Origin: Brunnivagina elsteri CCALA 953
Lineage (GTDB): Bacteria; Cyanobacteriota; Cyanobacteriia; Cyanobacteriales; Nostocaceae
Direction of reading: 5' to 3'
Assembly (NCBI RefSeq): GCF_002289455.1
Contig: NZ_NTFS01000006.1
Coordinates: forward strand, 1 to 42,618
Length of the DNA stretch: 42,618 nt
The position numbers and the translations under genes were made by a program. Positions 18,606-40,967 of this stretch are shown piece by piece. Under the pieces are notes generated by a model. That model was not told the DNA's origin. It made no database searches and saw only the letters and a list, made by a program, of their open reading frames with translations. Positions within the stretch are counted from its first letter, which is position 1, and the number at the start of each line of letters is the position of its first letter.

Positions 18606-18637
18606 GATTCTGTCTTCCAAAATTGGGTGTGAAGAAT

Positions 18638-18715: not shown

Positions 18716-18749
18716 GGTGATGTTTAAATATTGAAGATGGGATTTTGAT

Positions 18750-19949
18750 TTAGATGTGAATCGCGACATCAACTTGTAGATTAGTTAAACCTGCAACTCT
18801 TTTACTATCACTGGGATTGTCTATACGAATTTTGACCTCAACTACTCTACGATCTGTATCAGCAGAAGGGTTGACGCTAAGAATACTCTGACGTTCAATT
18901 TGTAGTCCAATATCGTTGACAGTTCCGGGGATTTTGCCGCTAAATGCTGTACTAGTAATGAGCGCTTTCTGTCCAATCCGCACCTTTTCAACATCGGTTT
19001 GATACACTTCTGCGACTACGTACATCTGCGATGTAGTGCCAAGTTCAACTATTCCATTACTACCGATAACCTCTCCAGATTTAGCATGAATTTTGAGAAT
19101 TTTGGAGTTAATTGGGGATTTAACATAGGTAAGTTCATGTTCTGCTTGGGATTGTGTGACTGCACTAATAGCACTTTTGACTTCCGCTTCAGCAAGTTGA
19201 ACATCAACTGGACGTACTTCACTCAGACTTGCTAACTTTGCCTGTGCTTCCTGAATTTGGTCTTGTAAAGTGCTGACTGTGCGAGTTAATCCAGCTTGAG
19301 CTTCACGGATTTGTTGTTCGACTGTTTGCAACTGCAAGCGTTTAGTATCGGCAATTGATGCGGAAACAGCACCTTGTTTATATATTTGCTGGTAGCGATT
19401 ATTTTCCGTGCGAGCATTATTCAACTGTGCTTGCAACCTGGCAATTGTGGCTTGTTGGGCTGCGACTTCACCTTTTACTTGAGCTTGTAATCTGGAAATA
19501 GTCGCCTTTTGAGCGCTAATATCTCCAGTTTTAGCTCCCGCTTTAATTTGAAGAAGTTTGGCTCGCGCTACACTCACTTTATCAATTGCTTGCTGAAGTG
19601 CAGCAGCAGTTCTAGCATATCCTTCTAACCAGGCAACGACTTGTCCTATACGAACAGATTCACCATCCTTGATGAGAACCTTTTCAACTCGTACACCACT
19701 CAAAGAACTCGGTGCTGATAAGCGTCGCACTTCACCTTGAGGTTCGATGCGTCCTAATGCTGTCACGGCAACTCTCGCTGGAACTGTTTTTGTTGCTTTT
19801 TCCGCTTCTTTCTGAACCGATGCTTGATATCTTGTCAGGCTGTAAATAGATAACAGTGCAGCGATTAATCCTACTGTTAAAGCAAAAATTATTCGCCAGC
19901 GATAATTAGGTTTTGGTGTATAAAACTGACTATCATTGTCTACGGTCAT
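18750..19949 (-). CDS. hgdB: DevB-like membrane fusion protein, HgdB
   Basis: A periplasmic adaptor (HlyD/DevB family) of about 399 residues. A single transmembrane segment sits near the N-terminus (IIFALTVGLIAALLSIYSL). The first half of the lipoyl/barrel-sandwich domain follows (VTALGRIEPQGEVRRLSAPS), then a long coiled coil rich in Gln/Ala/Arg (about 110-265), the second lipoyl half (YVKSPINSKILKIHAKSGEV) and a beta-barrel with QTDVEKVRIGQKALITST. The ATG at 19949 (MTVDNDSQ) puts a short cytosolic tail before the membrane helix; a longer start at 19988 is possible. It is the first gene of the minus-strand hgd series and would work with HgdC and a TolC-like outer membrane channel to export heterocyst glycolipids. 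Confidence 0.85.
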   Translation of the reverse strand: MTVDNDSQFYTPKPNYRWRIIFALTVGLIAALLSIYSLTRYQASVQKEAEKATKTVPARVAVTALGRIEPQGEVRRLSAPSSLSGVRVEKVLIKDGESVRIGQVVAWLEGYARTAAALQQAIDKVSVARAKLLQIKAGAKTGDISAQKATISRLQAQVKGEVAAQQATIARLQAQLNNARTENNRYQQIYKQGAVSASIADTKRLQLQTVEQQIREAQAGLTRTVSTLQDQIQEAQAKLASLSEVRPVDVQLAEAEVKSAISAVTQSQAEHELTYVKSPINSKILKIHAKSGEVIGSNGIVELGTTSQMYVVAEVYQTDVEKVRIGQKALITSTAFSGKIPGTVNDIGLQIERQSILSVNPSADTDRRVVEVKIRIDNPSDSKRVAGLTNLQVDVAIHI

Positions 19950-19988
19950 ATTCTTATCCCAATAATGTACGCAAAGAATTAGCCCCAT

Positions 19989-21274: not shown

Positions 21275-22657
21275 ATGCCTACTGTGCTAGCAGTACTTAT
21301 CGATCAAATCAATATTGGTTCCAACCGTCGTCCAATTAAGGACAATAAGGTTGTCGAATTAATGCAGTCAATTCGTGCCAATGGTTTATTAAATCCAATT
21401 ACAGTCGATCGCAAATTTACTTTAATTGCGGGATTGCATCGACTTACCGCTTATAGATTGTTGGGGTTCGAGCAAATCGAGTGTAAAATCGTTAATTTTG
21501 AGGATGCTGATCATGCGAGGTTAGCAGAAATCGACGAGAACTTTATTCGTAACGAACTCGAACCTCTAGAGCGATACGAACTTTGGTTAGAACGCGATCG
21601 CATTCTGGAACGGATGGGATTGCGCTTCAAGCCGGGTGACAATCAGCACACTCACAAGCTAAGTGCAATAGGTGGTGAAATTAATTCACTACCTCCAAAA
21701 ACAACTTTGGACTTGGCAAAGGGTTTTGGTTACAGCGAGCGTTCTTTCCAGCAAGGGAAGCAAATAGCTAGGGATATTCATCCCGATATCAAGCAAAAAA
21801 TTATTGATACCAGGCTAGGCAAAAGTCGTACTATCCAACTAAAAATAGCAAGAACTGCCAACCTTGAACGCACGCAAGCAGAAACAGCCGAGAAAGCCTT
21901 TGAAGCGGCAATGCAACAAGGTGATAAAGTAGAAGCCGAATATCAAGCTAATTTAGCAAAGGAAGCTAGGGAAAAGCAAAAAGAGCTACAGCTACTAGCT
22001 TTCCAGCGTGAAACATCACCAGACAAAGCTGCTAATGGCTATGCCAAAAAAATCACAAAACCAATACCTAAAAAAGAGCTACCCGAACCCATTAATAATG
22101 GCAAACCTGTAGCAGCAGCAAATCAAACTGGGGTTGAACATGGTGAAAAATGGATGTTAAACAAGCATCTAATTTACTGTGGGAATACGGCAGGCAAGCA
22201 ATTTATTAACCTGTTACCCTCCGATGCCGCTCTTGCGATCGCAACCCTGTCATCCTTCTGGGAACACGATTATCTCGTTAATGAAGCTAGGGTTGTAGCA
22301 GTATTGCGATCGCAGGGAAATATCAATAATTTTTGCAGCAGTCATCAAATGCCATTTCAGCATGAGTTTATTTTAAATAACATCTACGTCGGTATTTTTT
22401 CCCATCACCTAATCCCTAAACCAGAAAATACCATTAATCTTGAAGGAGTCGAGGGGATTATCAGTTATTTGTTAAATATGTACAGTAACCCCAATAGCTT
22501 TGTGATAGCTCCATTTATGGGACATGGGGAAATTTTGGTTGGTTGCGATCGTTTATCACGTACATGTTTTATTGGTGACGAGAATCCAGAATTAATCAGT
22601 CGGGGTATTCAACGCTGGCAAAATTTAACTGGGAAACAGGCAAGAAAAATCATTTGA
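21275..22657 (+). CDS. ParB-like protein with degenerate DNA-methyltransferase C-terminal domain
   Basis: A 460-residue protein. Residues 1-95 are a ParB/Srx-like domain (QSIRANGLLNPITV, LIAGLHRLTAYRLLG, AEIDENFIRNEL). Residues 95-200 contain helices including the GFGYSERSFQQGKQIAR helix-turn-helix-like part, and 200-280 is a charged coiled-coil linker. The C-terminal third resembles the ParB-linked N4/N6-adenine methyltransferases: GEKWMLNKHLIYCGNT echoes their GDHRLLCGD start, and APFMGHGEILVGCDRL near residue 412 echoes their DPFMGSGTT. The catalytic DPPY loop is not there; the expected place (about 315-334) reads ALAIATLSSFWEHDYL. Methylation is therefore unlikely. A strong ribosome-binding site (AGGAGGAA) precedes ATG 21275. 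It may be a regulator; its role in the hgl island is unknown. Confidence 0.7.
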   Translation: MPTVLAVLIDQINIGSNRRPIKDNKVVELMQSIRANGLLNPITVDRKFTLIAGLHRLTAYRLLGFEQIECKIVNFEDADHARLAEIDENFIRNELEPLERYELWLERDRILERMGLRFKPGDNQHTHKLSAIGGEINSLPPKTTLDLAKGFGYSERSFQQGKQIARDIHPDIKQKIIDTRLGKSRTIQLKIARTANLERTQAETAEKAFEAAMQQGDKVEAEYQANLAKEAREKQKELQLLAFQRETSPDKAANGYAKKITKPIPKKELPEPINNGKPVAAANQTGVEHGEKWMLNKHLIYCGNTAGKQFINLLPSDAALAIATLSSFWEHDYLVNEARVVAVLRSQGNINNFCSSHQMPFQHEFILNNIYVGIFSHHLIPKPENTINLEGVEGIISYLLNMYSNPNSFVIAPFMGHGEILVGCDRLSRTCFIGDENPELISRGIQRWQNLTGKQARKII

Positions 22658-24099: not shown

Positions 24100-27000
24100 A
24101 TGTCTGCTTCTTGGATAGATACTGCTTTGTCGCAATTAGAAGACCAAATTAAGGATTGTGAACAGGCATTATTAAAGTTTATTGAGGAGAAAAAGAGGAT
24201 GTCGGACAAACCTATGTCAACCAACAAGATGAACAGGAAACTGCAAGATAATCCGATTGCGATTATTGGGATGGCAAACCTCTTTCCCCAAGCAAGAAAT
24301 CTGCGTGAATATTGGGAAAATATTATTAATAAAGTTGACTGTATTACTGAGATTCCAGACTCCCATTGGAATGTCGATGATTATTATGATCCTAATCCAC
24401 GTACTAAAGAAGATAAAACATATTGTAAACACGGTGGGTTTATTCCTTATGTTGATTTTAACCCGATGGAATTTGGCTTACCACCAAATATTTTGGAAGT
24501 TACTGATGTGTCGCAATTGCTAAGTTTGGTGGTTGCGAAAGAAGCGATGGAAGATGCTGGGTATAGCACAACTAGCGAATTTAATCGCGAAAATGTAGGT
24601 GTAATTCTTGGTGTTGCTTCCGGAAAACAACTGGCAATGCCTTTGGCTGCAAGGTTGGAGTATCCAGTTTGGCAAAAGATTCTTAAAAGTAGTGGTTTAT
24701 CCGATGAGGATACTGAGAAAATTATTGGCAAATTCAAAAGTGCCTATGTGAAGTGGGATGAAAATGCTTTCCCTGGAATGCTAGCGAATGTTGTTGCTGG
24801 ACGAATTGCCAACCGTTTGAATTTTGGGGGTACTAACTGTGTAGTTGATGCTGCCTGTGCAAGTTCATTTGCGGCGTTAAAAATGGCGATTAGCGAATTA
24901 GTTGAACATCGTAGCGATATGATGCTTACGGGTGGGGTGGATACAGATAACTCCATCATGGCATATATTTCCTTTAGCAAAACTCCGGCTGTTTCTCCTG
25001 GTGATAAGGTTCAACCATTCGATGCTAAATCTGACGGGATGATGTTAGGTGAAGGCATTGGGATGGTTGTATTAAAACGTTTGCAAGATGCTGAACGGGA
25101 TGGAGACAAAATCTATGCGGTGATTCGCGGGATTGGCACATCAAGCGATGGACGCTACAAGAGTATATATGCACCTCGTCAAGAAGGACAGGTGAAAGCG
25201 TTACAGCGTGCTTACGATGATGCGGGGATTAATCCGGCAACCGTTGGGTTGGTTGAAGCCCACGGAACGGGAACAATGGCTGGTGATCCAACTGAGTTTG
25301 CATCGTTGCGGGAGTTTTTTGGCGATGACAATGCCAGAAAGCAGTATATTGCTCTGGGTAGTGTAAAATCCCAAATTGGGCATACGAAGGCGGCTGCGGG
25401 TTCTGCTAGTTTGATAAAAATGGCGCTGGCATTGCATCATAAGGTTTTACCAGCGACGATTAATGTTACCGAACCAAATCCCAAACTCAACATTAAAAAT
25501 TCGCCATTTTACCTGAATACGGAAACTCGTCCTTGGATTCGGGCAGAGAATGAAGCTCCACGACGCGCTGGTGTTAGTTCGTTTGGCTTTGGTGGTACTA
25601 ATTTCCACGTTATTTTGGAGGAGCATGTAACCCCAACAGCTAATACTAATCCCTATCGTCTCCACAGTACACCAGCAGAAATACTTCTATTTGCTGATAA
25701 TGTGACATCGTTACAAAGTCGATGCGAAGAAGTGTTAGCAAAGTTGCAATCCCACGCTGGGCAAAAAGATTATCTCGAACTAATTAAGGAATGCAAAGGT
25801 AATGAAATTCCTCTAAGTGCTGCGAGAGTGGGATTTGTGGCAGAATCTAGGGTTGAAGCTGCGAAATTGCTGCAAATGACCGTGGAGTTGTTGCGAACCA
25901 AATCTTCCTTACCAGCTTGGGAACATCCCCAAGGTATTTTCTACCGACAAAGCGGGATGGAATTGGGGGGTAAGGTTGTGGCTTTGTTCTCTGGACAAGG
26001 TTCCCAATATCTGGAAATGGGACGGGAATTGGTGATGAATTTCCCCAAAATGCAGCAAATGTTCGGTTACATGGACAGTTTGTTGCTGAAGGATAATTGC
26101 GCTCCACTTTCGGAAGTTGTTTTCCCCCATCCAGTGTTTGACGAGGTGGAGAGAAATGCTCAAATTGCGGCATTACAATGTACTGAATATGCTCAACCCG
26201 CAATTGGGATGTTGAGTGCGGGAATGTACAAAATCTTGCAGCAAGCTGGGTTCAAATCAGATTTTGTCGCTGGACATAGTTTTGGAGAATTGACAGCATT
26301 GTGGGCTGCGGGAGTCTTCAGTGATGAAGATTATAGCTTATTAGTGAAAGCACGGGGACAGGCAATGTCACCACCCCAAGACCCAGATTACGATGCCGGG
26401 GCAATGTTGGCAGTGAGAGAGGATTTGAGCAAAGTTGAAGCCGCGATCGCAAATTATCCTGGTGTTTCTGTTGCTAATTATAATTCTCAAAATCAGGTGG
26501 TTTTAGCTGGTCCTACGGCTGATATTCACCAAGCTCGCCAAGCTTTGCAGGATAAGGGTTATACTGCGATATTGCTACCTGTTTCGGCTGCATTTCACAC
26601 ATCCCTAATTGCCTTTGCCCAAAAGTCATTTACGATCGCACTACGTACTGTCAATTTCCAAACACCAAAAGTTCCCATTTACAGCAACGTCACAGGCAAT
26701 GTTTATCCCCAGGAACCCCAAGGGATTCAACGAATCCTGGAAACCCACCTTGCCAGTTCCGTACTATTTAAGCAGGAAATCGAGAATATTTATGGTGCTG
26801 GTGGTTATTGCTTCGTAGAATTTGGTCCCCGTAAAGTTCTCACCAACCTAGTTAAAGACATTTTGGGAACCCGTCCCCATATTGCCGTAGCCTTGAATGG
26901 TAGCAGCCATAAAAATAGCGATCGCACGCTGCGGGAAGCTGTTGTACAATTGCGTGTGGCGGGATTGCCCCTCAAAAATCTCGATCCTTACCAAGTACCG

Positions 27001-29808
27001 CTTTCTTTACCTCCAACTGAGACAACTAAAAGCATAAATATTCGTCTCAACGGTGCTAATTACATTTCCGAAAAAACTCGAAAAGGATGGACAGAAGCAC
27101 TGGAAGATGGATATAAAGTTTCCACCACAGAAGTAAATGCGATCGCCGAAGGCGGGGCTTTGCCCATCGCGGAAAATGTAGCTGAAGAAACACGACTCAT
27201 TTGCAACGTTGAATCTGAAAAGCAATTAATTCAAACCTCTAGCATGTCAATCTCTGCGAATTCCTCACCCAACTCTAGTAATGGACATCACTCCAATGCA
27301 CAAGTTGCAACCATTACTACCAATGGTGTTAAACCCGACTTAACATCAAATACCACATCAAATATCCCATCAACAGTGTCAGGTTCGCATCCAGAATCAA
27401 AACCAGCCACTTTTACGTCAAACCATACGAATGGCAGTAAAAATGGTAATTCTGAAGTGAAGTCTAATTTAATACCCAACACTCAGATTAACCTTCATAA
27501 CTCAGAACCAGAAAAATCTGTCCCACCTGTTACTCAACCAGCAAGACAGTCACAAATGCAACCTACATCAAACAATCTGGCTTATTACCAACGGGTTTTA
27601 GAAAGCTTAGAGTACGTCCTGGCACAGTTTCAACAAAATCAAAGTGAAAATTTACAAGTTCACGGATTGTATCTAAATCATCAACAGGAATACGCACAAA
27701 CCTTTTTCCAACTGATGCAGCAACAAAATAGCTTATTTGCTAACTTTGACGCTGCAAATCCCACCAAAGCAGTGGTGATGGAGAGTTTGGAACGCAGTAT
27801 GATGCAATTCCATTCCCAGCAAGGTGAAACTCTGCGGGTTCACGAACAATACCTTCAGCATCAAGTTGAGTACACTAAGCAATTTTTCCAAGTCATCCAG
27901 CAAGAATATGCACAGATTATTTCTGGTGATTCTGGGAATGCTGAAGTTGAAGAATTATTAACAACTGCACCAAGTCGACAAACTTCAGATACTCAGTCAG
28001 TCGAAAAGCAGGTTGACTCTATACCTGTTATTCGCAAACCAGCTACAAATAAGGTTGTAGAAATCTTACCTATAATTCCTACACCTACGGCGATACAAGT
28101 ACCGACAGAAGTTTTTAATCATAGTTCATCTTCCGTACAAGCTAAATCAATTGTTCAACCAGTAATTGAAAAAACAGTAATTGGAAAGCCTGTAATTGAA
28201 CAAACTGTAATTAAAGAAACAGTAATTAAAGAACCAATAGTTACAGCAATTACAAACTCACCAACTCCAACAATCGACTTATCAGACTTAAGTGATAGAC
28301 TACTAGCCATCACCAGCGAGAAAACAGGTTATCCAGTCGAAATGCTCGAACTCGACATGGACATGGAAGCTGACTTGGGAATCGACTCAATTAAACGAGT
28401 CGAAATCTTGGGAGGATTGCAAGAAATCTACCCAGAACTACCCCAACCAAACCTCGAAGAACTGGGTGAAAAGCGCACGATCGCACAAATAGTAGAATAT
28501 CTGCAATCGAATAATTCAGCGACTCCCAACGGTAGTATCGCGTCAGTAGCAAATAACGCAGATATAATACCCGTAGTTACATTCGCTGCAACAACACCAT
28601 TAATTGTTGAACCTTTAATTCCTGAAGTGACAGCAGCAGTTGCAACCCTAAATCAACCTTTAAACTTAGAAGTCGAAGTTCCCACAATTGCGTTAGCGAA
28701 GCTTACCGAAGGTATCGCAGACGCACAAACAACAACAGTTAATGTCGAAAACCTTGACCAAGCATTACTAGCCATCACCAGCGAAAAAACAGGTTATCCA
28801 GTCGAAATGCTCGAACTCGACATGGACATGGAAGCGGATTTGGGAATTGACTCCATCAAACGAGTCGAGATAATGGGAGCATTGCAAGAAGCATTCCCCG
28901 ACTTACCCAAACCCGATAACATGGAGGAAATAGCCGAACTTCGTACCATCGGACAAATCGCTAATTACCTCCAGAACCTTGCTGGGGGTGAAAAAAAAAA
29001 GCTTGAATTTGATTCGATTGACAGACGAACCGATGTAAGCATTGTTGATGATATCGATTTGGATGTAGATTTAGATACGGGGATTCAGAGACTCCCCGCA
29101 TCTCTCCAAATCCTCAACCAACCAGATTGGCTAGATTTTCAACCAGCAAGCGGTTACATAGCACTGATTACCGACGATGGTTCTGATACAACAGTAGAAG
29201 TTGCCAGTGGTTTAAGCGAACAAGGTTGGAAAGTCGTTATCTTGAACTTTCCTGCGATCGCACCAAACAAATCAACATTACCTGCGGGTATTGAAAGGGT
29301 AGTACTGACAGAACTGAGTGAAGCACATTTGCAAACACAACTGAATGCAATAACCACCAACTACGGTTCCATCGGTGCATTTATTCACGTCCATCCAACC
29401 TTCCCAGTACCCAACGACAACGGTATCTATTACAACCCAGCAGAAAAAGCCATCGTCAAACAGGTATTCTTAATCGCCAAACACCTGAAAAAATCCCTAA
29501 ACGAAGCAGCATCACAAACACGTAGTTGTTTTTGTACAGTAGCTCGTCTTGATGGAGCTTTCGGACTAGCACATCAAATAGATGGACAGCAAACAAAATA
29601 TAGTGCGATCGCAGCAGGTTTATTTGGGTTAAGCAAAACCATGATTTGGGAATGGTCAAACGTATTTTGCCGAGCGATCGATATTAGTCCAGCAATCGAC
29701 GCAGAGACATCAGCAAAACACATCATCGCAGAATTGCATGATTCAAATCGTAACCTCACCGAAGTAGCTTATGGAACCCAAGGAAGAGTGACACTGATAG
29801 CGAAATAA
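24100..29808 (+). CDS. hglE: Heterocyst glycolipid polyketide synthase HglE (KS-AT-ACP-ACP-partial KR)
   Basis: A 1902-residue type I, PUFA-synthase-like protein (PfaA type). An N-terminal helix (1-45) precedes a ketosynthase (about 50-510) with Cys253 in DAACASS, His388 in EAHGTGT and His428 in GHTKAAAG. The acyltransferase (about 615-935) has FSGQGSQY, Ser727 in GHSFGE and His833. A low-complexity linker (1050-1390) carries a 60-residue duplicated helix and five VIxxT/P pentapeptides. Two acyl carrier domains have phosphopantetheine serines Ser1430 and Ser1585, each in GIDSIKR. The C-terminal 240 residues match the structural, non-catalytic half of a ketoreductase; the catalytic half is in the downstream hglD. 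It elongates the glycolipid acyl chain. An alternative ATG at 24199 has the better ribosome-binding site (GAGGAG, AAGAGG). Confidence 0.92.
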   Translation: MSASWIDTALSQLEDQIKDCEQALLKFIEEKKRMSDKPMSTNKMNRKLQDNPIAIIGMANLFPQARNLREYWENIINKVDCITEIPDSHWNVDDYYDPNPRTKEDKTYCKHGGFIPYVDFNPMEFGLPPNILEVTDVSQLLSLVVAKEAMEDAGYSTTSEFNRENVGVILGVASGKQLAMPLAARLEYPVWQKILKSSGLSDEDTEKIIGKFKSAYVKWDENAFPGMLANVVAGRIANRLNFGGTNCVVDAACASSFAALKMAISELVEHRSDMMLTGGVDTDNSIMAYISFSKTPAVSPGDKVQPFDAKSDGMMLGEGIGMVVLKRLQDAERDGDKIYAVIRGIGTSSDGRYKSIYAPRQEGQVKALQRAYDDAGINPATVGLVEAHGTGTMAGDPTEFASLREFFGDDNARKQYIALGSVKSQIGHTKAAAGSASLIKMALALHHKVLPATINVTEPNPKLNIKNSPFYLNTETRPWIRAENEAPRRAGVSSFGFGGTNFHVILEEHVTPTANTNPYRLHSTPAEILLFADNVTSLQSRCEEVLAKLQSHAGQKDYLELIKECKGNEIPLSAARVGFVAESRVEAAKLLQMTVELLRTKSSLPAWEHPQGIFYRQSGMELGGKVVALFSGQGSQYLEMGRELVMNFPKMQQMFGYMDSLLLKDNCAPLSEVVFPHPVFDEVERNAQIAALQCTEYAQPAIGMLSAGMYKILQQAGFKSDFVAGHSFGELTALWAAGVFSDEDYSLLVKARGQAMSPPQDPDYDAGAMLAVREDLSKVEAAIANYPGVSVANYNSQNQVVLAGPTADIHQARQALQDKGYTAILLPVSAAFHTSLIAFAQKSFTIALRTVNFQTPKVPIYSNVTGNVYPQEPQGIQRILETHLASSVLFKQEIENIYGAGGYCFVEFGPRKVLTNLVKDILGTRPHIAVALNGSSHKNSDRTLREAVVQLRVAGLPLKNLDPYQVPLSLPPTETTKSINIRLNGANYISEKTRKGWTEALEDGYKVSTTEVNAIAEGGALPIAENVAEETRLICNVESEKQLIQTSSMSISANSSPNSSNGHHSNAQVATITTNGVKPDLTSNTTSNIPSTVSGSHPESKPATFTSNHTNGSKNGNSEVKSNLIPNTQINLHNSEPEKSVPPVTQPARQSQMQPTSNNLAYYQRVLESLEYVLAQFQQNQSENLQVHGLYLNHQQEYAQTFFQLMQQQNSLFANFDAANPTKAVVMESLERSMMQFHSQQGETLRVHEQYLQHQVEYTKQFFQVIQQEYAQIISGDSGNAEVEELLTTAPSRQTSDTQSVEKQVDSIPVIRKPATNKVVEILPIIPTPTAIQVPTEVFNHSSSSVQAKSIVQPVIEKTVIGKPVIEQTVIKETVIKEPIVTAITNSPTPTIDLSDLSDRLLAITSEKTGYPVEMLELDMDMEADLGIDSIKRVEILGGLQEIYPELPQPNLEELGEKRTIAQIVEYLQSNNSATPNGSIASVANNADIIPVVTFAATTPLIVEPLIPEVTAAVATLNQPLNLEVEVPTIALAKLTEGIADAQTTTVNVENLDQALLAITSEKTGYPVEMLELDMDMEADLGIDSIKRVEIMGALQEAFPDLPKPDNMEEIAELRTIGQIANYLQNLAGGEKKKLEFDSIDRRTDVSIVDDIDLDVDLDTGIQRLPASLQILNQPDWLDFQPASGYIALITDDGSDTTVEVASGLSEQGWKVVILNFPAIAPNKSTLPAGIERVVLTELSEAHLQTQLNAITTNYGSIGAFIHVHPTFPVPNDNGIYYNPAEKAIVKQVFLIAKHLKKSLNEAASQTRSCFCTVARLDGAFGLAHQIDGQQTKYSAIAAGLFGLSKTMIWEWSNVFCRAIDISPAIDAETSAKHIIAELHDSNRNLTEVAYGTQGRVTLIAK
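28162..28236 (+). repeat. 15-bp coding tandem repeat in the hglE linker
   Basis: Five in-frame 15-base units, each starting GTAATT, encode pentapeptides VI(E/G/K)xT or P. They sit just before the first ACP and probably form a flexible tether. Confidence 0.85.
28301..28403 (+). repeat. First copy of near-identical ACP-coding direct repeat
   Basis: Bases 28301-28370 match 28766-28835 with a single difference, and similarity continues with a few changes to 28403/28868. Both copies encode the ACP core up to and past the GIDSIKR motif. The offset is 465 bases (155 codons). Confidence 0.85.
28766..28868 (+). repeat. Second copy of near-identical ACP-coding direct repeat
   Basis: Partner of the copy at 28301-28403; it encodes the second ACP with Ser1585. 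Synonymous positions are also conserved, which points to a recent duplication or to gene conversion. Confidence 0.85.
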
Positions 29809-29909
29809 AAGAACTAGCTAGCAAGAGGAACGCAGACAGAAAACAACGGAAAACATGGAGAAACAATATCTCCATGTTCCTCCATCCCAACTTCCAAAAC
29901 TAATTAAAT

Positions 29910-30413
29910 ATGTCAAAAAAAAACACAATAAATTATATCGGTCGTATAATTGACTACGAAAAACAAGCACCGATTCGAGGAGCCAAAGTTTCATTAAAAA
30001 CCGATGAAATTTCCCTGACTTCCCACACAGACTTAGAAGGAATTTATCTCTTTCAAATCAACCCAGACAAAGCTAAAAACGTCCAAGGTCAAATATACGT
30101 AGAAGCATCAGGATATAGACCTTATCAATATTCAATTTGGCTATCATCCGACAAAAAAGACTTAGGAGATGTTCGCTTAGGAAATTCAGGAGGAAGTAAC
30201 ACCAGCCTCGCAAGTAATAGTAGTAGTAGCAGTTCCAACAATAGTAGCAATAGTAATAGTAATAATAATTTAATTGCAATTATCACTATTATCATGATTG
30301 GGTTTTTCATTTTCATTTCCCAAACAATTAGAAACCCCAATGAAAGTGATGATAACAACGACAATAACAACCCCCGTAGAAACTCACCTAATTCACTATA
30401 TTACGATAGATAA
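29910..30413 (+). CDS. Membrane-anchored carboxypeptidase-regulatory-like (Ig-like) domain protein
   Basis: A 167-residue protein between hglE and hglD. Residues 6-92 resemble a CarboxypepD_reg beta-sandwich: GRIIDYEKQAPIRGAKVSL, a turn with TDLEGIYLFQI, then VEASGYRPYQYSIWL and DLGDVRLG. A Ser/Asn-rich low-complexity linker (95-120) encoded by AGT/AAT repeats follows, then one transmembrane helix (LIAIITIIMIGFFIFISQTI) and a polar Asn/Asp/Arg tail. It has no signal peptide, so topology is uncertain. Only 101 bases separate it from hglE, so co-transcription is likely. It may anchor the PKS to a membrane (inference). The name hglF or hglG may have been used for a gene in this position; I cannot confirm this. 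Confidence 0.7.
   Translation: MSKKNTINYIGRIIDYEKQAPIRGAKVSLKTDEISLTSHTDLEGIYLFQINPDKAKNVQGQIYVEASGYRPYQYSIWLSSDKKDLGDVRLGNSGGSNTSLASNSSSSSSNNSSNSNSNNNLIAIITIIMIGFFIFISQTIRNPNESDDNNDNNNPRRNSPNSLYYDR
30213..30270 (+). repeat. AGT/AAT trinucleotide repeat within the coding sequence
   Basis: An imperfect run of AGT, AGC and AAT codons encodes the Ser/Asn linker of the small membrane protein. Changes in copy number would alter linker length without breaking the frame. Confidence 0.7.
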
Positions 30414-30510
30414 GAGATAAAAACCGCAGATAAACGCAGATAAACGCGGATAAATATAGATAGAAGGTATCGCTTATCCAAACACAAAATTTGATATTCT
30501 CTTCATTTAT

Positions 30511-30540
30511 TCCTTGGCGTACTCCGCGTCTTGGCGGTTT
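30511..30540. repeat. Dispersed repeat, inverted copy of the CCGCCAAG family
   Basis: TCCTTGGCGTACTCCGCGTC followed by TTGGCGGTTT is the reverse complement of the sequence type at 37229-37254, with a shorter relative at 4141-4160. It lies in the spacer before hglD, beside a tandem CGCAGATAAA-type repeat (about 30424-30452). Confidence 0.7.
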
Positions 30541-30604
30541 CCTCCTCCATATTTCTAAAGCTTATCTCCTCCCAACATAAACACCATCTCCCCGAATAAA
30601 ACCT

Positions 30605-32329
30605 ATGCCAATCAAAACCCACATCAACAGCGACTCCGTATTTGTAGTTAGCGGAGGAGCCAAAGGAATCACCGCAAAATGTACAATCAAACTAGCCCAA
30701 AAATATCCCTGTAAATTCATTCTTTTAGGACGTTCCCAACTAATAGAAAGCGAACCCGAATTTGCCAAAAACTGCATTGACGAAGCAACATTAAAAAAAC
30801 GCATCATGGAATACATTTTAGCAACTGGTGCAAAACCAACACCAATCAGCGTCCAAAAAATGTACAACCAAATCGCATCCAATCGCGAAATAAAACAAAC
30901 ATTAGCAGCAATAAACCAAGCTGGTGGAAACGCCGAATACTTAAGCATAGATATCACCAACCTAGAAACATTAAAAACAAAACTAGCAGAAACAACCAGC
31001 AAACTTGGGAAAATCACCGGAATCATACATGGAGCAGGTAATTTAGCAGATAAACTAATAGAAAAGAAAACCGAAGAAGACTTTGAAAAAGTATATACAG
31101 CCAAAGTACAAGGATTAGAAAACCTACTTCACTGCATACCCGTCAGTCAACTAAAACACCTAGTATTATTTTCCTCCGTCACCGGATTTTACGGAAACAT
31201 CGGACAATCAGACTATGCGATCGCAAATGAAATTCTCAACAAATCAGCCCATTTAATCAAACAGCAGCATCCCGAATGTCACGTAGTAGCAATTAACTGG
31301 GGTGGTTGGGATAGCGGAATGGTGACACCTCAACTCAAACAGGAATTTGCCCGTCGGGGTATTGATATTATCCCAGTCGATGCGGGTACGCAGATGTTGG
31401 TCAACGAACTCAACCCAGCACACCAAAATACTACCCAAGTAGTTATCGGTAGTCCAATGTTTTTTCCACCTGCACCTTTGGGTACTGAGTTACGCACACA
31501 TCGAGTACATCGTCGTCTCCAAGCTGAAGCAAACCCATTTTTAATCGACCACACCATTGCTGGTAACTTGGTATTACCTGCTACTTGTGCTGTATCTTGG
31601 ATTGCAGATACTTGCGAACATTTATATCCAGGATATCGATTTTTCAGCGCTAACGATTTTAGAGTTTTGAAAGGTATCATTTTTAACGAAAATCTTGCCA
31701 GCGAACATATTCTAGAATTGCAAGAAATCTCAAAAATTGAAGGACAAGAAATTGAATTTCAAGCCAAAATTTTCAGCCATAATGCTGCCGGTAAACCAGT
31801 ATTTCATTTCAGTGCAAATCCTAAATTAGTTCGAGAAATTCCCCCAGCACCCAAATACGAAAATCTCAACCTCGAAACAGATAACATAATTACATTACGA
31901 GGCAAAGAATTTTATCAACAAAATCCATCATCATTATTTCATGGTGCTGCATTCCAAGAAATAAAACGTGTAGTTAATATTAGTCCGGAAAAAATCACCA
32001 CTGAATGCTTTTGGAAACCAATTAGTTCCAAACAACAAGGACAATTTCCAGTTGGTTGGATGAATCCCTATGCAACTGATATAAGTACCCATGCACTGTG
32101 GATTTGGCTGTATCATTTCCACAAACAAATTTGTCTTCCTGGACAAATGGTAAAAGAAGAAAAATTTGCCAGCATACCAGCAAATCAACTGTATTATGTT
32201 TCCTGCGAAATCCAGCAAAAAACAGCAACATCTGTTACAGCTAATCTCATAGTTCACGATATTGAAGGTAATATATTCTCACGTTTATTAGGAAATAAAG
32301 GTATTATTTTACCAAAACTATTAGAATAA
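30605..32329 (+). CDS. hglD: HglD: catalytic ketoreductase half plus dehydratase
   Basis: A 574-residue protein. Residues 8-240 are the NADPH-binding catalytic subdomain of a PKS ketoreductase: VVSGGAKGITAKCTIKL, LLGRSQ, GIIHGAGNLADKLIEKK, then LFSSVTGFYGNIGQSDYAIAN with Ser191, Tyr204 and Asn208. It starts at this subdomain, with the structural half left at the end of HglE. From about 295 a double hot-dog dehydratase follows, with the first-half motif HTIAGNLVLP (His316) and a second half around LFHGAAFQEIK and NPYATDISTHALWIW. It would reduce and dehydrate beta-ketoacyl-ACP intermediates. No good ribosome-binding site precedes ATG 30605. The symbol follows the hglEDCA order as I recall it; hglG is the alternative name. 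Confidence 0.82.
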   Translation: MPIKTHINSDSVFVVSGGAKGITAKCTIKLAQKYPCKFILLGRSQLIESEPEFAKNCIDEATLKKRIMEYILATGAKPTPISVQKMYNQIASNREIKQTLAAINQAGGNAEYLSIDITNLETLKTKLAETTSKLGKITGIIHGAGNLADKLIEKKTEEDFEKVYTAKVQGLENLLHCIPVSQLKHLVLFSSVTGFYGNIGQSDYAIANEILNKSAHLIKQQHPECHVVAINWGGWDSGMVTPQLKQEFARRGIDIIPVDAGTQMLVNELNPAHQNTTQVVIGSPMFFPPAPLGTELRTHRVHRRLQAEANPFLIDHTIAGNLVLPATCAVSWIADTCEHLYPGYRFFSANDFRVLKGIIFNENLASEHILELQEISKIEGQEIEFQAKIFSHNAAGKPVFHFSANPKLVREIPPAPKYENLNLETDNIITLRGKEFYQQNPSSLFHGAAFQEIKRVVNISPEKITTECFWKPISSKQQGQFPVGWMNPYATDISTHALWIWLYHFHKQICLPGQMVKEEKFASIPANQLYYVSCEIQQKTATSVTANLIVHDIEGNIFSRLLGNKGIILPKLLE

Positions 32330-32495: not shown

Positions 32496-35400
32496 GTGGA
32501 AAAAATAGCAATTATTGGATATTCATGTTTATTTCCTGATGCTAAAAACCCTGATGAATTTTGGCATAATCTCATCGCTCAAAAAGACTCTACCTCAACA
32601 ATTACTGCTGAAGAAATGGGAATAGAGCCTAATATATTCTATGACCCCAAAAAAGGCAAAGCCGACAAAATTTACTCTTTAAAAGGGTCATTTATTCGCG
32701 ATTTTAAATTTGATTCTAAAGGTTATAAACTGCCTGCTGAATTTCTCGATCGTCTCGATAATACTTTTAAATGGTCGTTATATGTCGCAAAGCAAGCTTT
32801 ACGAGATTGTGGCTACTTAACCAATCCCGAAATTCTCGCTAAGTGTGGAGTAATTTTAGGCACTCTATCTTTCCCAACAAAATCATCAAACCAACTATTT
32901 GCGCCAATTTATCAGCAACTTCTCGCATCTACAATACGTGACTTGATCCAAAAAGAAGATTTTGATTTATCAACTCTGTCAGCAAATGGGAATATTTCTG
33001 CCCATAATGCAATGATATCAGGCTCCCCAGCCGCAATTATTGCTCAAGCACTGGCATTATCAGATATTCATTGCTCTATTGATGCAGCTTGTTCATCTCC
33101 TTTATATTCAATTCGATTAGCATCCCATTATTTGTGGACACATAAGGCAGATATAATGCTGGCAGGTGGAATTAGTGCATCTGACCCATTATTTGTACGA
33201 ATGCTATTTTCTAGTATCCAAGGATACCCGGAAAACAACGATATTAGCCGTCCACTTGACAAATCATCAAGGGGATTAATGACTGCCGAAGGAGCAGGAA
33301 TCTTTGTCTTAAAGCGTTACAGCGATGCAGTCAGAGATGGAGACAGAATCTACGCAGTTGTCGCTGGTAACGGACTTTCCAATGATGGAAGAGGCAAACA
33401 TTTACTTAGTCCAAACTCCAAAGGACAGGTTCTCGCATTTGAACGTGCTTATGCAGAGGCAAATCTCAACCCGAAAAATATTGATTACATGGAGTGTCAC
33501 GCTACGGGTACTTTACTCGGTGATACCACTGAATTTAATTCCATTGAAACCTTTTTCGGCAAACATCAAGCTTCACCCCTAGTTGGTTCAGCGAAGGCAA
33601 ATGTGGGACACCTTTTGACTGCTGCGGGTTCTGTGGGGTTAATCAAGGTGCTTCTGAGCATGTCTAAGGGGGTTATCCCAGCGACAATCAACATCAAGGA
33701 ACCCTTGGGAACTGGGAGCAATGTGATTTCTCCAAAAAATGTTGTTCGCAGTGCCACCAACTGGGCAAGTAAAGCACCCGTAAAACGTGCTGCTGTGAGT
33801 GCATTTGGATTTGGTGGTACCAATGCACATATAATTTTAGAACAAGGGATGACAACACACCCAACCTATGCTGAGGAAGCACTGATACCAACAAAAATTG
33901 CGATCGTGGGAATGGATGCTTTTTTTGGAAATTGTAATGGGTTGGATGCTTTTGAACGCAGTATTTACGACGGAACGCAGCATTTTGTCCCTTTACCAGC
34001 AGAACGTTGGTATGGTGTGGAAAAGCAAGCAGATTTACTCAAGCAGTATGGAATCGAAGCGGGAAATTTGCCCCAGGGAGCATATCTTCAAAATTTTGAT
34101 GTCGATACGTTAGCTTACAAAATTCCACCGAATGAATTAGCAAAGTTGAATCCGCAGCAATTGCTCTTATTGAAAGTTGCCGATCGCGCTTTAGAAGATG
34201 CGGGTATTAAAGAAGGTAGTAATGTCGCGGTATTAATTGCTACGGAAACAGAGTTTTCGGTTCACCATTTGCAGCAGCGTTGGAATTTGGATTGGCAGGT
34301 AAAAGAAGGCTTGATTGCGGGGGAAATTTCCCTACCTGCCGAGAAAGTAGCTCAACTGGAAACAGTTGTTAAAGATGGGATTCACAACCCTGTGGAGACT
34401 AGCGAATATGTCAGCTACATTGGCAATATTATGGCAAGTCGGATTTCCGCTCTATGGGATTTATCAGGACCAACTTTCACTGTAGCAGCAGGTGAGAACT
34501 CAACATTTAGGGTATTAGAAATTGCTCAGAATCTCTTGACTACTGGGGAAGTTGATGCAGTTTTAGTTGGTGCTGTGGATTTAGCGGCAGGTTTGGAAAA
34601 TATCTTGTTGCGGAATCAATTAGCACCGATAAATACAGGTACAAAAACCCTAAGTTTCGACCAAAAAGCCAATGGTTGGAATGTGGGAGAAGGTGCTGGT
34701 GCGGTAGTATTGAAACGTCATGATGTTGCGATCGCAAATCAAGAACGTATTTATGCGGTGGTTGATGGGATTAGTTTTAGTCAGCAATATGCTACTGAAA
34801 ATAATTTCGATAAATTAGATAAATCCCTCGTTACTCCCAATCCATCCCAAGTACATCAAGTTTGCACTTCAGCATTTAAAACTGCAAATATTCCAGCCAG
34901 CGAAGTGGAATACGTAGAAGTGTATGGTAGTGGTGTCACTCAAGAAGATGATGCGGAAATTGCCGGATTATTACAAGCATATTCTGTCGGCAAGAATGGA
35001 TTGAGTTGTGCAATTGGCAGCGTAAAATCAAACATCGGTCATACTTACACTGCATCAGGAATTGCCAGCTTAATCAAAACAGCATTATGTCTGTATCACC
35101 GATATATCCCCGGTACACCAAAGTGGAATGGGGTAAAAAATCCAGAACTATGGCAAGGTAGTCCATTTTACGTAGCTTCCGAATCACGACCGTGGTTTTT
35201 GGGTAAAGATGCGAAAAAACGTGTCGCAGCAATCAACGGTATGGATATCAATGGTACTTATGCTCACCTAATCTTGTCGGAAGATGCAGAACAGGTAGAG
35301 CGTCAGAGTAAGTATTTGCACCAAACTCCATTTTATCTATTCCCAGTGGGGGGTAGTAACTTAGCAGATTTGCTTACCCAACTCGAAAATCTGCAAAATC

Positions 35401-37202
35401 TGATTACCCAGGATTCCCAACTAGCTAAACTTGCTAGTCAGACTTTTACAATATTCCAAACCAAAGAAAAATCAGCATATACCCTCGCAATAGTTGGACG
35501 GAATCAAACCGAACTCACAAAAGAAATCGATAATGCAGTCAAAGGAATTACCAAAGCTTTTACCACAGGGGAAGACTGGTTAACACCATTAGGTAGTTAT
35601 TTCACCCCTAAACCTTTGGGTAAAGATGGTCAAGTCGCATACATCTACCCTGCTGCCGTCAACTCATATATTGGTATTGGACGTAACCTTTTCCGCTTAT
35701 TCCCACAGGTTCATGAAGATACAGCACTAAAAAATTTGTACAGCATTGTTGCAGATGTTTCCCGTCTGGTATTTCCCCGCAGTCTCAACAAACTTTCCAA
35801 CCGTCAACTAGAAAACCTCGAAAAGCAGCTCCTTGAAGACTCACGAGCTATTTTTGAAACCGACATGGGTTTTGCTCGGTTAATCACAACTATTATTCGT
35901 GATGATTTCCAAGTCAAACCTAAGTATGTATTCGGTTACAGCTTAGGAGAAACAAGCATGATGTTATCAACAGGTGTTTGGAGCGACTTTAGTCAAAGTG
36001 TTAGCGCTTTGCATACCTCCCCCCTATTTGTAGACAGGGTATCCGGAGTCAAAAATGCCGTGCGGGAATATTGGGGAATGCCAACGGAACACCATACAGG
36101 AGATGATAGCTTCTGGAGTACCTACCTATTAATGGCAGAACCCGACAAAGTACGGGAAGCTTTGAAAAACGAACATCGCGTTTACCTCACCCAAATTAAT
36201 ACACCCGAAGAAGTCGTTATTGCCGGAGATACTCAAGGGTGCGATCGCGTGATTCAATCCCTTGGCTGTAATGCCTTTCGCGCTCCCTTCAACCACGCCA
36301 TCCATAACGAGGCAATGCGTTCTGAATACGGAGAAATTGTCAGAATTAATACATCGCCAGCCGTAAAATTACCTGATATAAAATTCTATTCCTCCGCAGA
36401 ATATCAACCAATCGATTTAGAGTGCGATCGTATTGCCCATAGTATTGGCAAATGTCTGTCTGAACCTCTCGATTTTCCCCGTCTCATCAACCAAGTTTAC
36501 AACGATGGAGCCAGAATTTTTCTGGAAACAGGTTCTGGTAATATTTGTTCCCGTTGGATTGACAAAACTTTAGAGACAAAACCCCACATTACTATACCCT
36601 TAAATCGTCGGGGAGTTGATGACCATACCTCTATTGTCAGAGCATTAGCAAAACTACTCAGTCATCAAGTTCCCCTGAATTTAGCACCGCTTTACTCAAC
36701 AGAAGAAGTCAGCATTAAACCTAGTAAAGTGAATATGAAAACTGTGACAGTTGGTGGGGATTCAATAATAGGAAAAATACTTACACCCGAAAATAGACAA
36801 ATCTTCCAAAATCTATCTGTCGAAGCACCGAAAGTAAGTATTAAAGTTGAGACAAGTACTTTTATTCAGCAAGAAAAAATAATTAAAAAGCAAGAGAAAT
36901 TACCCATGAAAAAGGTCACGAATAACAGTTTTAGTTCCAGCAAACATATAGAATTTGAAGAGTTATCTGGAGTCGTCAAACCAGAACCTTTTTCGCCGCT
37001 ACCCGTAGCAACACAGAATTCTGAAACCAAAACTTATCGTTCTCATATTAGTCAATTACACTTGGAAAAGTTAACTGCTAATAATTATAAGGTTACTCAG
37101 AACCACGCAAGCTTCTTAAATAATCGCCAAGAATATAGCAAGCAAATCAGTGATATTATTCAATTGCAATTAGCTTGTGCTGAACATTTATTATGTGAAT
37201 AG
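32496..37202 (+). CDS. hglC: Heterocyst glycolipid synthase HglC (KS-CLF-AT)
   Basis: A 1568-residue PfaC/PfaB-like protein. The first ketosynthase (1-460) has Cys199 in DAACSSP, His335 in ECHATGT and His372 in GHLLTAAG, so it is active. The second, KS-like unit (465-925) has Glu667 where the cysteine should be (VAAGENST) and Tyr in place of the first histidine (VEVYGSG), so it is a chain-length/initiation factor. The acyltransferase (about 1010-1420) has the PfaB-like GYSLGETSM with Ser1149. The last 140 residues form a linker ending in a helix related to one in HglE. It starts with GTG at 32496. It would condense and extend the chain together with HglE; a class with two partners of this type is typical of PUFA-synthase-like systems. 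Confidence 0.9.
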   Translation: MEKIAIIGYSCLFPDAKNPDEFWHNLIAQKDSTSTITAEEMGIEPNIFYDPKKGKADKIYSLKGSFIRDFKFDSKGYKLPAEFLDRLDNTFKWSLYVAKQALRDCGYLTNPEILAKCGVILGTLSFPTKSSNQLFAPIYQQLLASTIRDLIQKEDFDLSTLSANGNISAHNAMISGSPAAIIAQALALSDIHCSIDAACSSPLYSIRLASHYLWTHKADIMLAGGISASDPLFVRMLFSSIQGYPENNDISRPLDKSSRGLMTAEGAGIFVLKRYSDAVRDGDRIYAVVAGNGLSNDGRGKHLLSPNSKGQVLAFERAYAEANLNPKNIDYMECHATGTLLGDTTEFNSIETFFGKHQASPLVGSAKANVGHLLTAAGSVGLIKVLLSMSKGVIPATINIKEPLGTGSNVISPKNVVRSATNWASKAPVKRAAVSAFGFGGTNAHIILEQGMTTHPTYAEEALIPTKIAIVGMDAFFGNCNGLDAFERSIYDGTQHFVPLPAERWYGVEKQADLLKQYGIEAGNLPQGAYLQNFDVDTLAYKIPPNELAKLNPQQLLLLKVADRALEDAGIKEGSNVAVLIATETEFSVHHLQQRWNLDWQVKEGLIAGEISLPAEKVAQLETVVKDGIHNPVETSEYVSYIGNIMASRISALWDLSGPTFTVAAGENSTFRVLEIAQNLLTTGEVDAVLVGAVDLAAGLENILLRNQLAPINTGTKTLSFDQKANGWNVGEGAGAVVLKRHDVAIANQERIYAVVDGISFSQQYATENNFDKLDKSLVTPNPSQVHQVCTSAFKTANIPASEVEYVEVYGSGVTQEDDAEIAGLLQAYSVGKNGLSCAIGSVKSNIGHTYTASGIASLIKTALCLYHRYIPGTPKWNGVKNPELWQGSPFYVASESRPWFLGKDAKKRVAAINGMDINGTYAHLILSEDAEQVERQSKYLHQTPFYLFPVGGSNLADLLTQLENLQNLITQDSQLAKLASQTFTIFQTKEKSAYTLAIVGRNQTELTKEIDNAVKGITKAFTTGEDWLTPLGSYFTPKPLGKDGQVAYIYPAAVNSYIGIGRNLFRLFPQVHEDTALKNLYSIVADVSRLVFPRSLNKLSNRQLENLEKQLLEDSRAIFETDMGFARLITTIIRDDFQVKPKYVFGYSLGETSMMLSTGVWSDFSQSVSALHTSPLFVDRVSGVKNAVREYWGMPTEHHTGDDSFWSTYLLMAEPDKVREALKNEHRVYLTQINTPEEVVIAGDTQGCDRVIQSLGCNAFRAPFNHAIHNEAMRSEYGEIVRINTSPAVKLPDIKFYSSAEYQPIDLECDRIAHSIGKCLSEPLDFPRLINQVYNDGARIFLETGSGNICSRWIDKTLETKPHITIPLNRRGVDDHTSIVRALAKLLSHQVPLNLAPLYSTEEVSIKPSKVNMKTVTVGGDSIIGKILTPENRQIFQNLSVEAPKVSIKVETSTFIQQEKIIKKQEKLPMKKVTNNSFSSSKHIEFEELSGVVKPEPFSPLPVATQNSETKTYRSHISQLHLEKLTANNYKVTQNHASFLNNRQEYSKQISDIIQLQLACAEHLLCE

Positions 37203-37667: not shown

Positions 37668-39332
37668 GTGAGAACTGTTGGTACAGTGATAAATCCACAA
37701 ACAAATGGTCTTAATTTTCCAACCTTTTCCTTTTACCAAAATCAAATATGGAAAGGTTCGCTAGATTGCATATCTTTTGACATTAATAGTATCAAAGAAA
37801 AATTATTAACTTTAAATAAACCTTGTTATATAGTTAGAGTTGATGGCAACATTGGTGCTACTAATGATGGCTACATTTGTCCTACAGAAAATTCTATAAC
37901 TGGACAAGTTGAGTTATTAGCAACAGTTGCACCTCTTTCCACAAGAAACTTAGGCGACCCAAATTTCCTAACAGATTATGGTGTAAAATATGCTTATTCA
38001 ACTGGTGCAATGGCGGGTGGAATTGCATCGGAAGAAATGGTAATTGCATTGGGAAAAGCAAAAATTCTAGCCTCATTTGGTGCAGGTGGTTTGACTCCTG
38101 ATAGACTCGAAGCTGCTATTAATTGTATTCAATCTGCATTACCTCTTGAACCTTATGCATTCAATTTAATCCATAGTCCTAACGAACCAGCAATGGAACG
38201 TCGTGCTGTTGATTTGTATCTCAAATATGGGGTACGAGTCGTTGAAGCATCGGCATTTTTAGATTTAACCCCCAATATTGTTTATTATCGTGTTGCTGGA
38301 TTAGGGTTAAATTCGAGTAATGAAATCGAAATTAAAAACAAAGTAATTGCTAAAGTGTCCCGTCGAGAAGTCGCAAGCAAATTTCTCCAACCAGCACCAC
38401 AACGTTTGCTTAAACAACTTGTCGAACAAGGTTTAATTACTGAGCTTCAAGCATCATTGGCTGAGAAAGTTCCGATGGCTGATGATATTACCGTAGAAGC
38501 AGATTCTGGGGGACATACTGATAATAGACCTCTTGTATCTTTGCTGCCTTCAATGTTAGCTTTACGGGACGAAATTCAGGCACAATATAACTATAAAAAA
38601 CCAATTCGTATCGGTGTTGCAGGTGGAATTGCAGAACCGCGATCGGCATTAGCTGGGTTTATGATGGGTGCAGCATATATTGTTACAGGTTCAATTAATC
38701 AATCCTGTATAGAATCGGGAAGTTGTGAACATACAAAACAGCTACTTGCACAGGCAGAAATGGCTGATGTAATGATGGCTCCTGCGGCAGATATGTTTGA
38801 AATGGGAGTCAAATTGCAGGTTCTCAAACGCGGCACAATGTTCCCGATGCGGGCACAAAAGCTATATGAATTGTATCGAACATATGACTCAATAGAAGCG
38901 ATTCCCTTAGCAGAACGGGAAAAGCTAGAAAAGCAGGTTTTTCGCAAGTCTATTGCTGAAGTTTGGGAAGGAACAGCTACATATTTATCGCAACGCAATC
39001 CAGAAAAATTAGCTAAGGCGATTAATAATCCTAAGCTGAAAATGGCTTCGATTTTTAAATGGTATTTAGGGTTATCCTCACGATGGTCAAACTCTGGGGA
39101 AAAAGGACGGGAAGTTGATTATCAAATCTGGTGTGGTCCAGCAATGGGTGGTTTTAATGACTGGGTAAGAAGTTCATATTTAGCTGAACCAAAAAATCGT
39201 CAGGTTGTTGATGTTGCTAATCAGATTATGAATGGTGCAGGCTATTTATACCGGGTTCAAAGTTTAAAAATTCAAGGTTTACAACTGCATGATTTTTACT
39301 CCCAGTATTATCCGGAAAAATCGACTTTATAA
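37668..39332 (+). CDS. hglA: PfaD-like trans-acting enoyl reductase HglA
   Basis: A 554-residue flavin-dependent (2-nitropropane dioxygenase-like) TIM-barrel protein of the PfaD family. Features include CYIVRVDGNIGATNDGYICP in the N-terminal region, LASFGAGGLTPDRLEAAI, the flavin/active-site stretch ITVEADSGGHTDNRPLVSLL and IRIGVAGGIAEPRSALAGFM, then the PfaD-specific C-terminal region with MASIFKWYLGLSSRWSNSGE and DYQIWCGPAMGGFNDW. In PUFA-type synthases PfaD reduces enoyl-ACP in trans, which supplies the enoyl reductase missing from HglE, HglD and HglC. It starts with GTG at 37668, with GAGGAA 7 bases upstream. Confidence 0.88.
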   Translation: MRTVGTVINPQTNGLNFPTFSFYQNQIWKGSLDCISFDINSIKEKLLTLNKPCYIVRVDGNIGATNDGYICPTENSITGQVELLATVAPLSTRNLGDPNFLTDYGVKYAYSTGAMAGGIASEEMVIALGKAKILASFGAGGLTPDRLEAAINCIQSALPLEPYAFNLIHSPNEPAMERRAVDLYLKYGVRVVEASAFLDLTPNIVYYRVAGLGLNSSNEIEIKNKVIAKVSRREVASKFLQPAPQRLLKQLVEQGLITELQASLAEKVPMADDITVEADSGGHTDNRPLVSLLPSMLALRDEIQAQYNYKKPIRIGVAGGIAEPRSALAGFMMGAAYIVTGSINQSCIESGSCEHTKQLLAQAEMADVMMAPAADMFEMGVKLQVLKRGTMFPMRAQKLYELYRTYDSIEAIPLAEREKLEKQVFRKSIAEVWEGTATYLSQRNPEKLAKAINNPKLKMASIFKWYLGLSSRWSNSGEKGREVDYQIWCGPAMGGFNDWVRSSYLAEPKNRQVVDVANQIMNGAGYLYRVQSLKIQGLQLHDFYSQYYPEKSTL

Positions 39333-39461: not shown

Positions 39462-40967
39462 ATGATAGTTCCAAAAAAAATAGAATCCGCAGCAGACATT
39501 CAAGAGTGGATGGTGACGAAATTAGCTGAGTTACTATCAGTTGAACCTGAGACTATTGATGTTGAACAACCTTTAGAAAGTTATGGTTTGGATTCGTCAC
39601 GAGCAATGGTTTTGGTGACACAGTTGGAGAAAATATTGGATGTAGAAGTTTCTCCTGTGTTGTTATGGCACTATCCAACTATTGAAGCTTTATCACAAAG
39701 GTTGGCTGAAGATTGCGAAGAAAATACTTATGACACTCCAAATACAAGTGTTACTAGTAAATTTAGTCCTGTCGTGAATTTACAAGATGAGGCTGTTCTT
39801 GACCCTAGAATTTACCCTGCTTCTTCTTCTTTTGCCTTTACTTCTACACCAGATAATGTATTTTTGACAGGTGCTACTGGGTTTTTGGGTGCATTTCTTG
39901 CTTATGAGTTGTTGCAGCAAACAAATGCAGATATTTACTGTTTAGTACGTGCTGCTAATATTCACGCTGGGAAGAGTAAGATTAAGAGCAACTTAGAAAA
40001 ATATGGTATCTGGGAAGATAGTTTTGAACCCAGAATTATGCCTATTTTAGGTGATTTATCACAGCCACTTTTAGGGATTAGTCAAGAAGCTTTTGAAATG
40101 TTGGCTGCAAATATGGATGCTGTCTATCACAGTGCGGCAACATTGAATTATGTTTACCCTTATTCGGCACTTAAAGCTCCGAATGTTTTGGGTACTCAGG
40201 AGCTTTTACGGTTAGCAAGTTCGATTAAAGTTAAACCTCTGCATTATGTCTCTAGTGTAGCTGTATTTGAGTCTCCTATTTATGCAGGTCAGGTTGTTAA
40301 GGAAGATGATGATTTTAAACATTGGGAAGGTATTTTCCTAGGTTATTCCCAGACTAAATGGGTAGCTGAAAGATTGGTAAAAATTGCCAAGGAAAGAGGG
40401 CTTCCTATTACTATTCATCGTCCTCCGTTGATTTCTGGTCATAGTGAAACTGGTATTGGTAATATTGATGATTTCATTAATTTAATGATTAAGGGTTGTC
40501 TACAAATGGGAAGTTTCCCTGATGTAGATTACATGATGGATATGTCTCCTGTGGATTATGTTAGTAAATCGATTGTTCATCTTTCGCTACAAAAAGAGTC
40601 TCTGGGTAAGGCTTTTAATTTACAACATCCCCAACCTGTTCCTTTACAAGACTTAGTAAATTGGGTAAGAAAATTTGGTTTTTCTGTTGAGCTTATTCCC
40701 TATGAAGAGTGGCAAAATCAGTTAGTTAATATTAGCTCTTCTGACAATCCTCTGTACACACTACGACCATTTTTACTTGAGCGCTGGTCAAAAGAACAAC
40801 TCACAATTCCTGATTTATATTTGAAGGCAAAACGACCTTTTATTAGCTGTGAGGCGACAATTAAGGCGTTAGCTGGTAGCAATATTGTATGTCCTCCAAT
40901 TGACTCAAATTTGTTTATGATATATTCTGCTTTCTTGATTGAATCTGGGTTTATTCAGATGGGTTAG
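39462..40967 (+). CDS. hglB: HglB (HetM): ACP-thioester reductase
   Basis: A 501-residue protein. The N-terminal acyl carrier domain (about 8-85) has phosphopantetheine Ser45 in YGLDSSRAM. The thioester reductase domain (from about 130) has TGATGFLG (136-143), [12 protein letters not shown] and YSQTK with Tyr295 and Lys299. It would release the finished acyl chain from the ACP by NAD(P)H-dependent reduction to an aldehyde or alcohol, giving the polyhydroxy fatty alcohol aglycone. The length agrees with Anabaena HglB/HetM (about 506, from memory). A GAGATAGG-like ribosome-binding site precedes ATG 39462. It is the last gene of the plus-strand hgl series. Transcription runs toward the hairpin at 41022-41041; hetN, its usual next neighbour, is absent. 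Confidence 0.93.

Follow-up and report, generated by a model that had tools for sequence, protein, structure and literature searches.

It is generally assumed that the structural subdomain of a ketoreductase (KR) cannot be separated from the PKS or FAS reductase to which it belongs. How, then, should one read a heterocyst-glycolipid (hgl) synthase in which the structural half of the KR closes one gene, the catalytic half opens another, and a gene for a small membrane protein lies between the two? We addressed this question for a window of 42,618 nucleotides from Brunnivagina elsteri CCALA 953 (NZ_NTFS01000006.1), the term window denoting the whole stretch of DNA analysed. Heterocyst glycolipids are lipids that serve nitrogen-fixing cyanobacterial cells as an oxygen barrier, and such a lipid is the product to be expected from the gene content of the island described here.

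The window reads as the sole hgl synthase island of a Calothrix-type cyanobacterium; a search of its own genome with HglE and the KR-DH protein returned no second hgl island, and the closest relatives found were Calothrix genomes (KR-DH protein identity 91% and 87%). By Pfam, the gene set is complete, comprising hglE, hglG, the KS-CLF-AT gene, PfaD, the ACP-thioester reductase and the phosphopantetheinyl transferase, together with the hgd transporter genes and a glycosyltransferase. On the forward strand, hglE (24100-29808, 1902 aa; hglEF in publications) encodes, by Pfam and NCBIfam, KS-AT-ACP-ACP and then the KR structural half, and is followed by the small-protein gene (29910-30413) and by hglG (30605-32329, 574 aa; KR-DH). 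Farther downstream on the same strand are the KS-CLF-AT gene (32496-37202, Pfam and NCBIfam domains; HglC of the Nostoc cluster), a PfaD-type enoyl reductase gene (37668-39332; PF18328, PF21607) and hglB for the ACP-thioester reductase (39462-40967; PF00550, PF07993), while a HetI-like phosphopantetheinyl transferase gene (41244-41990; PF01648) lies on the reverse strand. The reverse strand also carries the accessory block at 12852-19988, recognised by Pfam, with an hglT-like glycosyltransferase (12852-14096), an hgdA-like epimerase (16270-17283), an hgdC-like, FtsX-like permease (17430-18620) and an hgdB-like membrane-fusion protein (18750-19988). Between hgdB and hglE, at 21275-22657, we also observed a protein of 460 aa; it begins with a ParB N-terminal domain, and its match to a DNA methylase is weak and partial.

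The break itself is sharply placed. In profile searches, HglE residues 1633-1902 matched positions 1723-1979 of TIGR02813 (PfaA; E = 1e-37) and HglG matched positions 1991-2566 (E = 4e-129), and the two stretches are therefore neighbours in the PfaA profile. The structural subdomain (KRs) occupies HglE residues 1667-1902 (29098-29805, forward strand), and the catalytic subdomain (KRc) occupies HglG residues 1-281 (30605-31447, forward strand), followed by a DH-like domain (31448-32329, forward strand) that extends to TIGR02813 position 2566 and matches PF21089 (PKS_DH_N) just below the cut-off. Only HglG matched the KR domain PF08659 (profile positions 2-179 of 180); a Pfam scan of the HglE tail matched no domain, and phmmer against PDB sequences gave weak SDR matches only. 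In the tail, the cofactor-motif position reads TDDGSDTT instead of the usual SDR motif, the SDR Tyr-x3-Lys pair is missing, and the C-terminal end reads GRVTLIAK. HglG, starting MPIKTHINSDSVFVVSGG, has the NADPH motif SGGAKGIT at residue 16 and the K-S-Y-N tetrad K167, S191, Y204 and N208, the residues being spaced as in modular PKS KRs. Judged by sequence, HglG holds the catalytic subdomain only. The two open reading frames are separated by 796 bp and lie in different frames (start-to-start distance 6505, i.e., 1 mod 3), with the small-protein frame intact inside the gap; promoter-like and terminator-like sites, searched for on the coding strand of this gap, were not found. The original prediction, which had HglE ending in about 240 residues of a KR structural half, the next protein opening directly on the NADPH-binding half, and an intact frame within the gap, is borne out on all of these points.

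Structure prediction agrees with the profiles. The AlphaFold2 model of the HglE tail (pLDDT 85.5, pTM 0.87) adopts an SDR-like fold, and its Foldseek matches are SDRs; by both profile and model the tail is SDR/KR-like. We conclude that these some 236 residues are a degenerate SDR fold that lacks an active site, namely the structural half of a PfaA-type KR. A natural fused homologue, L042, was folded with the split halves supplied as separate alignment rows (pLDDT 83.0, pTM 0.83), and the single stretch below pLDDT 50, residues 221-226, is the linker where the genes break. Foldseek aligned about 500 columns of this model to the full PKS KRs 5d2e, 5ktk, 4j1q and 2fr0, and L042 is thus predicted to form a complete two-subdomain PKS KR in which the structural subdomain packs against its catalytic partner. 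Assembly of the window KR from its two chains is inferred from this homologue.

Taken together, sequence and models make it probable that the window encodes a PfaA-type KR made as two chains, KRs on HglE and KRc on HglG, which would dock with each other. Reassembly from two chains, which the original prediction had presented as a necessity, is supported as the most likely consequence of the split. HglE would carry KS, AT and ACPs together with the KR scaffold, KRs adjoining the ACPs, and HglG would supply the KR active site and DH. Non-covalent docking of KRs and KRc would restore a normal PKS-type KR and, at the same time, would bring the reductase and DH to the HglE ACPs on the other chain, coupling reduction to the ACP-bound chain. 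Co-expression of the two partners is supported by Nostoc PCC 7120, where hglEF and hglG share one transcript (PMC10287535), and a published list counts hglE, hglF and hglG as essential for glycolipids (PMC11804610), although polar effects may contribute to the disruption phenotypes of hgl genes.

Among the competing explanations, the one that survives best, improbable as we consider it, is that HglG is a self-sufficient SDR-type reductase, the HglE tail being either a relic or no more than a platform on which ACPs or other subunits dock. KRc has all four catalytic residues and the PF08659 domain in its entirety; it reads as a complete SDR-type catalytic fold that might conceivably act alone, and free-standing SDRs of the FabG type require no structural subdomain. 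KRs is, moreover, the less conserved half (mean identity 0.65 vs 0.76 for KRc) and evolves somewhat faster. Against this, the fused homologue L042 models as a normal two-subdomain PKS KR, and KRs is kept wherever both halves are placed, even as a gene of its own, and is under purifying selection. Measured against L003, dN and dS are 0.030 and 0.33 for the HglE tail, 0.026 and 0.36 for KRc, and 0.042 and 0.46 for the small protein; all three are under purifying selection. KRs as its own gene (about 180-240 residues), placed between the KS-AT-ACP gene and the KRc-DH gene, was found in eight genomes (loci L102, L130, L131, L133, L141, L129, L138 and L139); Pfam, run on two of these stand-alone proteins (L141 and L102), recognised neither. 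One genome with such a gene, G258 (12.3 Mb), has the stand-alone KRs in a second island (L102), next to a standard island that includes the membrane gene (L101).

The halves may even part company altogether. In the assembly G176, HglE-KRs and KRc-HglC-PfaD (the L186/L187 pair) are each located inside a different long contig (265 and 216 kb), so that in this one assembly the halves appear unlinked and the island broken exactly between them. A PapA-like gene is left upstream of KRc there.

Less probable still is the proposal that the KR halves cannot assemble without the small membrane protein, which would tie them together at a membrane. This 167-aa protein (forward strand), characterised through sub-cut-off Pfam matches, a family alignment and slot occupancy, comprises an N-terminal CarboxypepD_reg-like domain (PF13620, 23.4 bits, below the cut-off of 32.3), a Ser/Asn-rich linker, one hydrophobic TM-like segment and a polar tail. 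Its family is tied to the slot: strong matches occur in 24 of 60 Nostocaceae genomes, all 24 of them between the KR halves, with four weak matches sitting elsewhere, and the purifying selection on the protein likewise speaks for a requirement. However, the other 36 genomes lack it in the slot, and nearly all of these have the split; Nostoc-type islands do without it, with gaps of 18-345 bp. As most split genomes lack the small protein, the split does not need it. Unrelated genes, for an SDR or a PapA-like acyltransferase, occupy the slot elsewhere, and the hydrophobic segment is directly followed, in some relatives, by a cluster of positive charges, a pattern that would favour a folded domain outside the cytoplasm rather than within it. 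On the tree, its presence requires three changes. From its distribution, we regard the small protein as an island-tied optional accessory outside the KR proper; the suggestion in the original prediction that it may hold the KR at a membrane is weakened both by its absence from 36 of the 60 genomes and by the charge pattern. As to the other occupants of the slot, a canonical SDR gene is found in L129 and L137 and a PapA/condensation-like acyltransferase gene in L135 and L146, the latter suggesting that the product of that genus may be esterified.

Whether the split is a true one was judged across the family. About 160 KR loci, some overlapping, were collected, and each of the 51 Nostocaceae genomes retrieved for their standard island (L077-L129) had the KR halves in separate open reading frames. 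The break always falls in the same inter-subdomain linker, 0-10 aa past the GRVTL motif and some 8-35 aa ahead of VSGG, the latter distance varying with the choice of start. Over 128 split locus entries, the relative frames of the halves are distributed 41/45/42, and this randomness excludes frameshifting, readthrough and sequencing error; the gene split put forward in the original prediction is therefore genuine. Both halves do occur in one frame in second hgl-like islands, often in the same genomes as split islands, as well as in the deltaproteobacterial locus L040 and in outgroups within the phylum, as is expected of PfaA-type relatives; in the fused hgl-like islands and in L040 the linker between KR domain matches measures about 40-70 nt. 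In the islands L041-L045 the cuts lie elsewhere and leave one gene each for KS-AT, ACP and KRs-KRc-DH. Some open frames of 2395-2658 aa at first suggested fused standard islands, a reading dropped because every one examined has in-frame stops. That the split reflects an error of sequencing or assembly, or that frameshifting or readthrough overcomes it to give one chain, has next to no chance and is excluded by conservation for the window-type split, for in spite of the one to three in-frame stops in the short gap of some relatives and of frameshifts elsewhere in several MAG loci (L003, L039), it is contradicted by the random frames, single-contig genomes included, by gaps that reach about 1.7 kb, by whole genes in the gap and by the unlinked halves in G176.

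On a tree of 64 rows built from the concatenated KR halves, all rows of the hgl clade are split, and splits also occur within a mostly fused clade (L142, L185); fused and split states require at least five changes, the direction of each not being firm because of the long branch that leads to the outgroup L040. In Plectonema cf. radiosum LEGE 06105 (L011, 750-3900), we also noted an insertion with a 491-aa minus-strand ORF inside hglE; it sits in the linker just before KRs, leaves the downstream KRs frame intact, and contains none of the Rfam elements searched for.

The gene names deserve a comment. In Nostoc sp. 'Peltigera membranacea cyanobiont' the order is HglE, HglG, HglC, PfaD, HglB, HetI, and HT-58-2 has the same order plus a carboxypeptidase-regulatory protein between HglE and HglG (PMC8073705); the PCC 7120 transcript is asr5350-hglEF-hglG-hglD-hglC-hglA-hglB (PMC10287535). 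Because these published clusters name the KR-DH gene HglG, the name HglD given to it in the original prediction is wrong. The KS-CLF-AT gene of the window probably corresponds to hglD-hglC of PCC 7120, and the PfaD-type enoyl reductase gene probably to hglA. At 4,626 bp, hglEA of PCC 7120 (PMC11804610) has about the length of a tail-less HglE in relatives, and hence the HglE tail is probably the equivalent of hglF. On this reading, hglF and hglG would be two halves of one enzyme.

Returning to the two-chain KR, we also considered that the split is a working device, with KRs on HglE as a docking site from which the KR-DH chain comes and goes. We think this rather unlikely; were it true, the iterative synthase could skip reduction or dehydration in chosen cycles, which would leave heterocyst glycolipids with their keto and hydroxyl groups, and the stand-alone and unlinked halves would show KR subdomains working as separate, exchangeable subunits. 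More generally, the family-wide split and the stand-alone structural halves suggest that KR subdomains can live as separate proteins. Natural split KRs would offer ready pairs for reconstitution tests, and the break a natural cut point for engineering iterative PKSs.

Among the closest known systems is the heterocyst glycolipid island itself (Type F secondary lipid synthase; hglE-F-G-D-C-A-B), whose gene content and order the window shares; the HT-58-2 island, like the window, has its carboxypeptidase-regulatory-like gene between HglE and HglG (PMC8073705). We found no description of a split KR, whether for hgl or for other synthases, in what were mostly open-access main texts, so that priority is not certain; neither the main text of PMC3098273 nor that of PMC11804610 mentions a KR cut between its subdomains. 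The Type D PUFA synthase of Psychroflexus (pfaA1/pfaA2) resembles the window in that pfaA is split near the KR, but by its description the cut lies before the KR (KS-AT-ACP | KR), whereas that of the window lies inside it (PMC3098273). Clade II cyanobacterial PKS-NRPS-PUFA clusters have, in the available part of their description, pfaA in separate pieces and, between them, a Rossmann protein to which no function is assigned (JACS Au 2026, PMC13291983). The layout is that of L141/L183/L184 (G232), where stand-alone KRs lies between two pfaA pieces of a PKS-NRPS-lipid cluster that also carries a tryptophan-halogenase-like gene. The Rossmann protein, which that part of the paper does not identify as a KR structural half, is probably one, and stand-alone KRs would thus offer an identity for this unassigned protein; these clusters, as far as that part describes them, are cut on both sides of KRs and make a product other than that of the window. 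PfaA of PUFA synthases (TIGR02813, Shewanella/Moritella type) has the same domain order, KS-AT-ACPs-KRs-KRc-DH, yet is one chain, whereas the window synthase is cut between KRs and KRc. Finally, the modular PKS KRs EryKR1 (2fr0), PksJ (5ktk) and MlnE (5d2e) have the structural plus catalytic architecture predicted for the fused homologue L042 but, unlike the window KR, are made as a single polypeptide.
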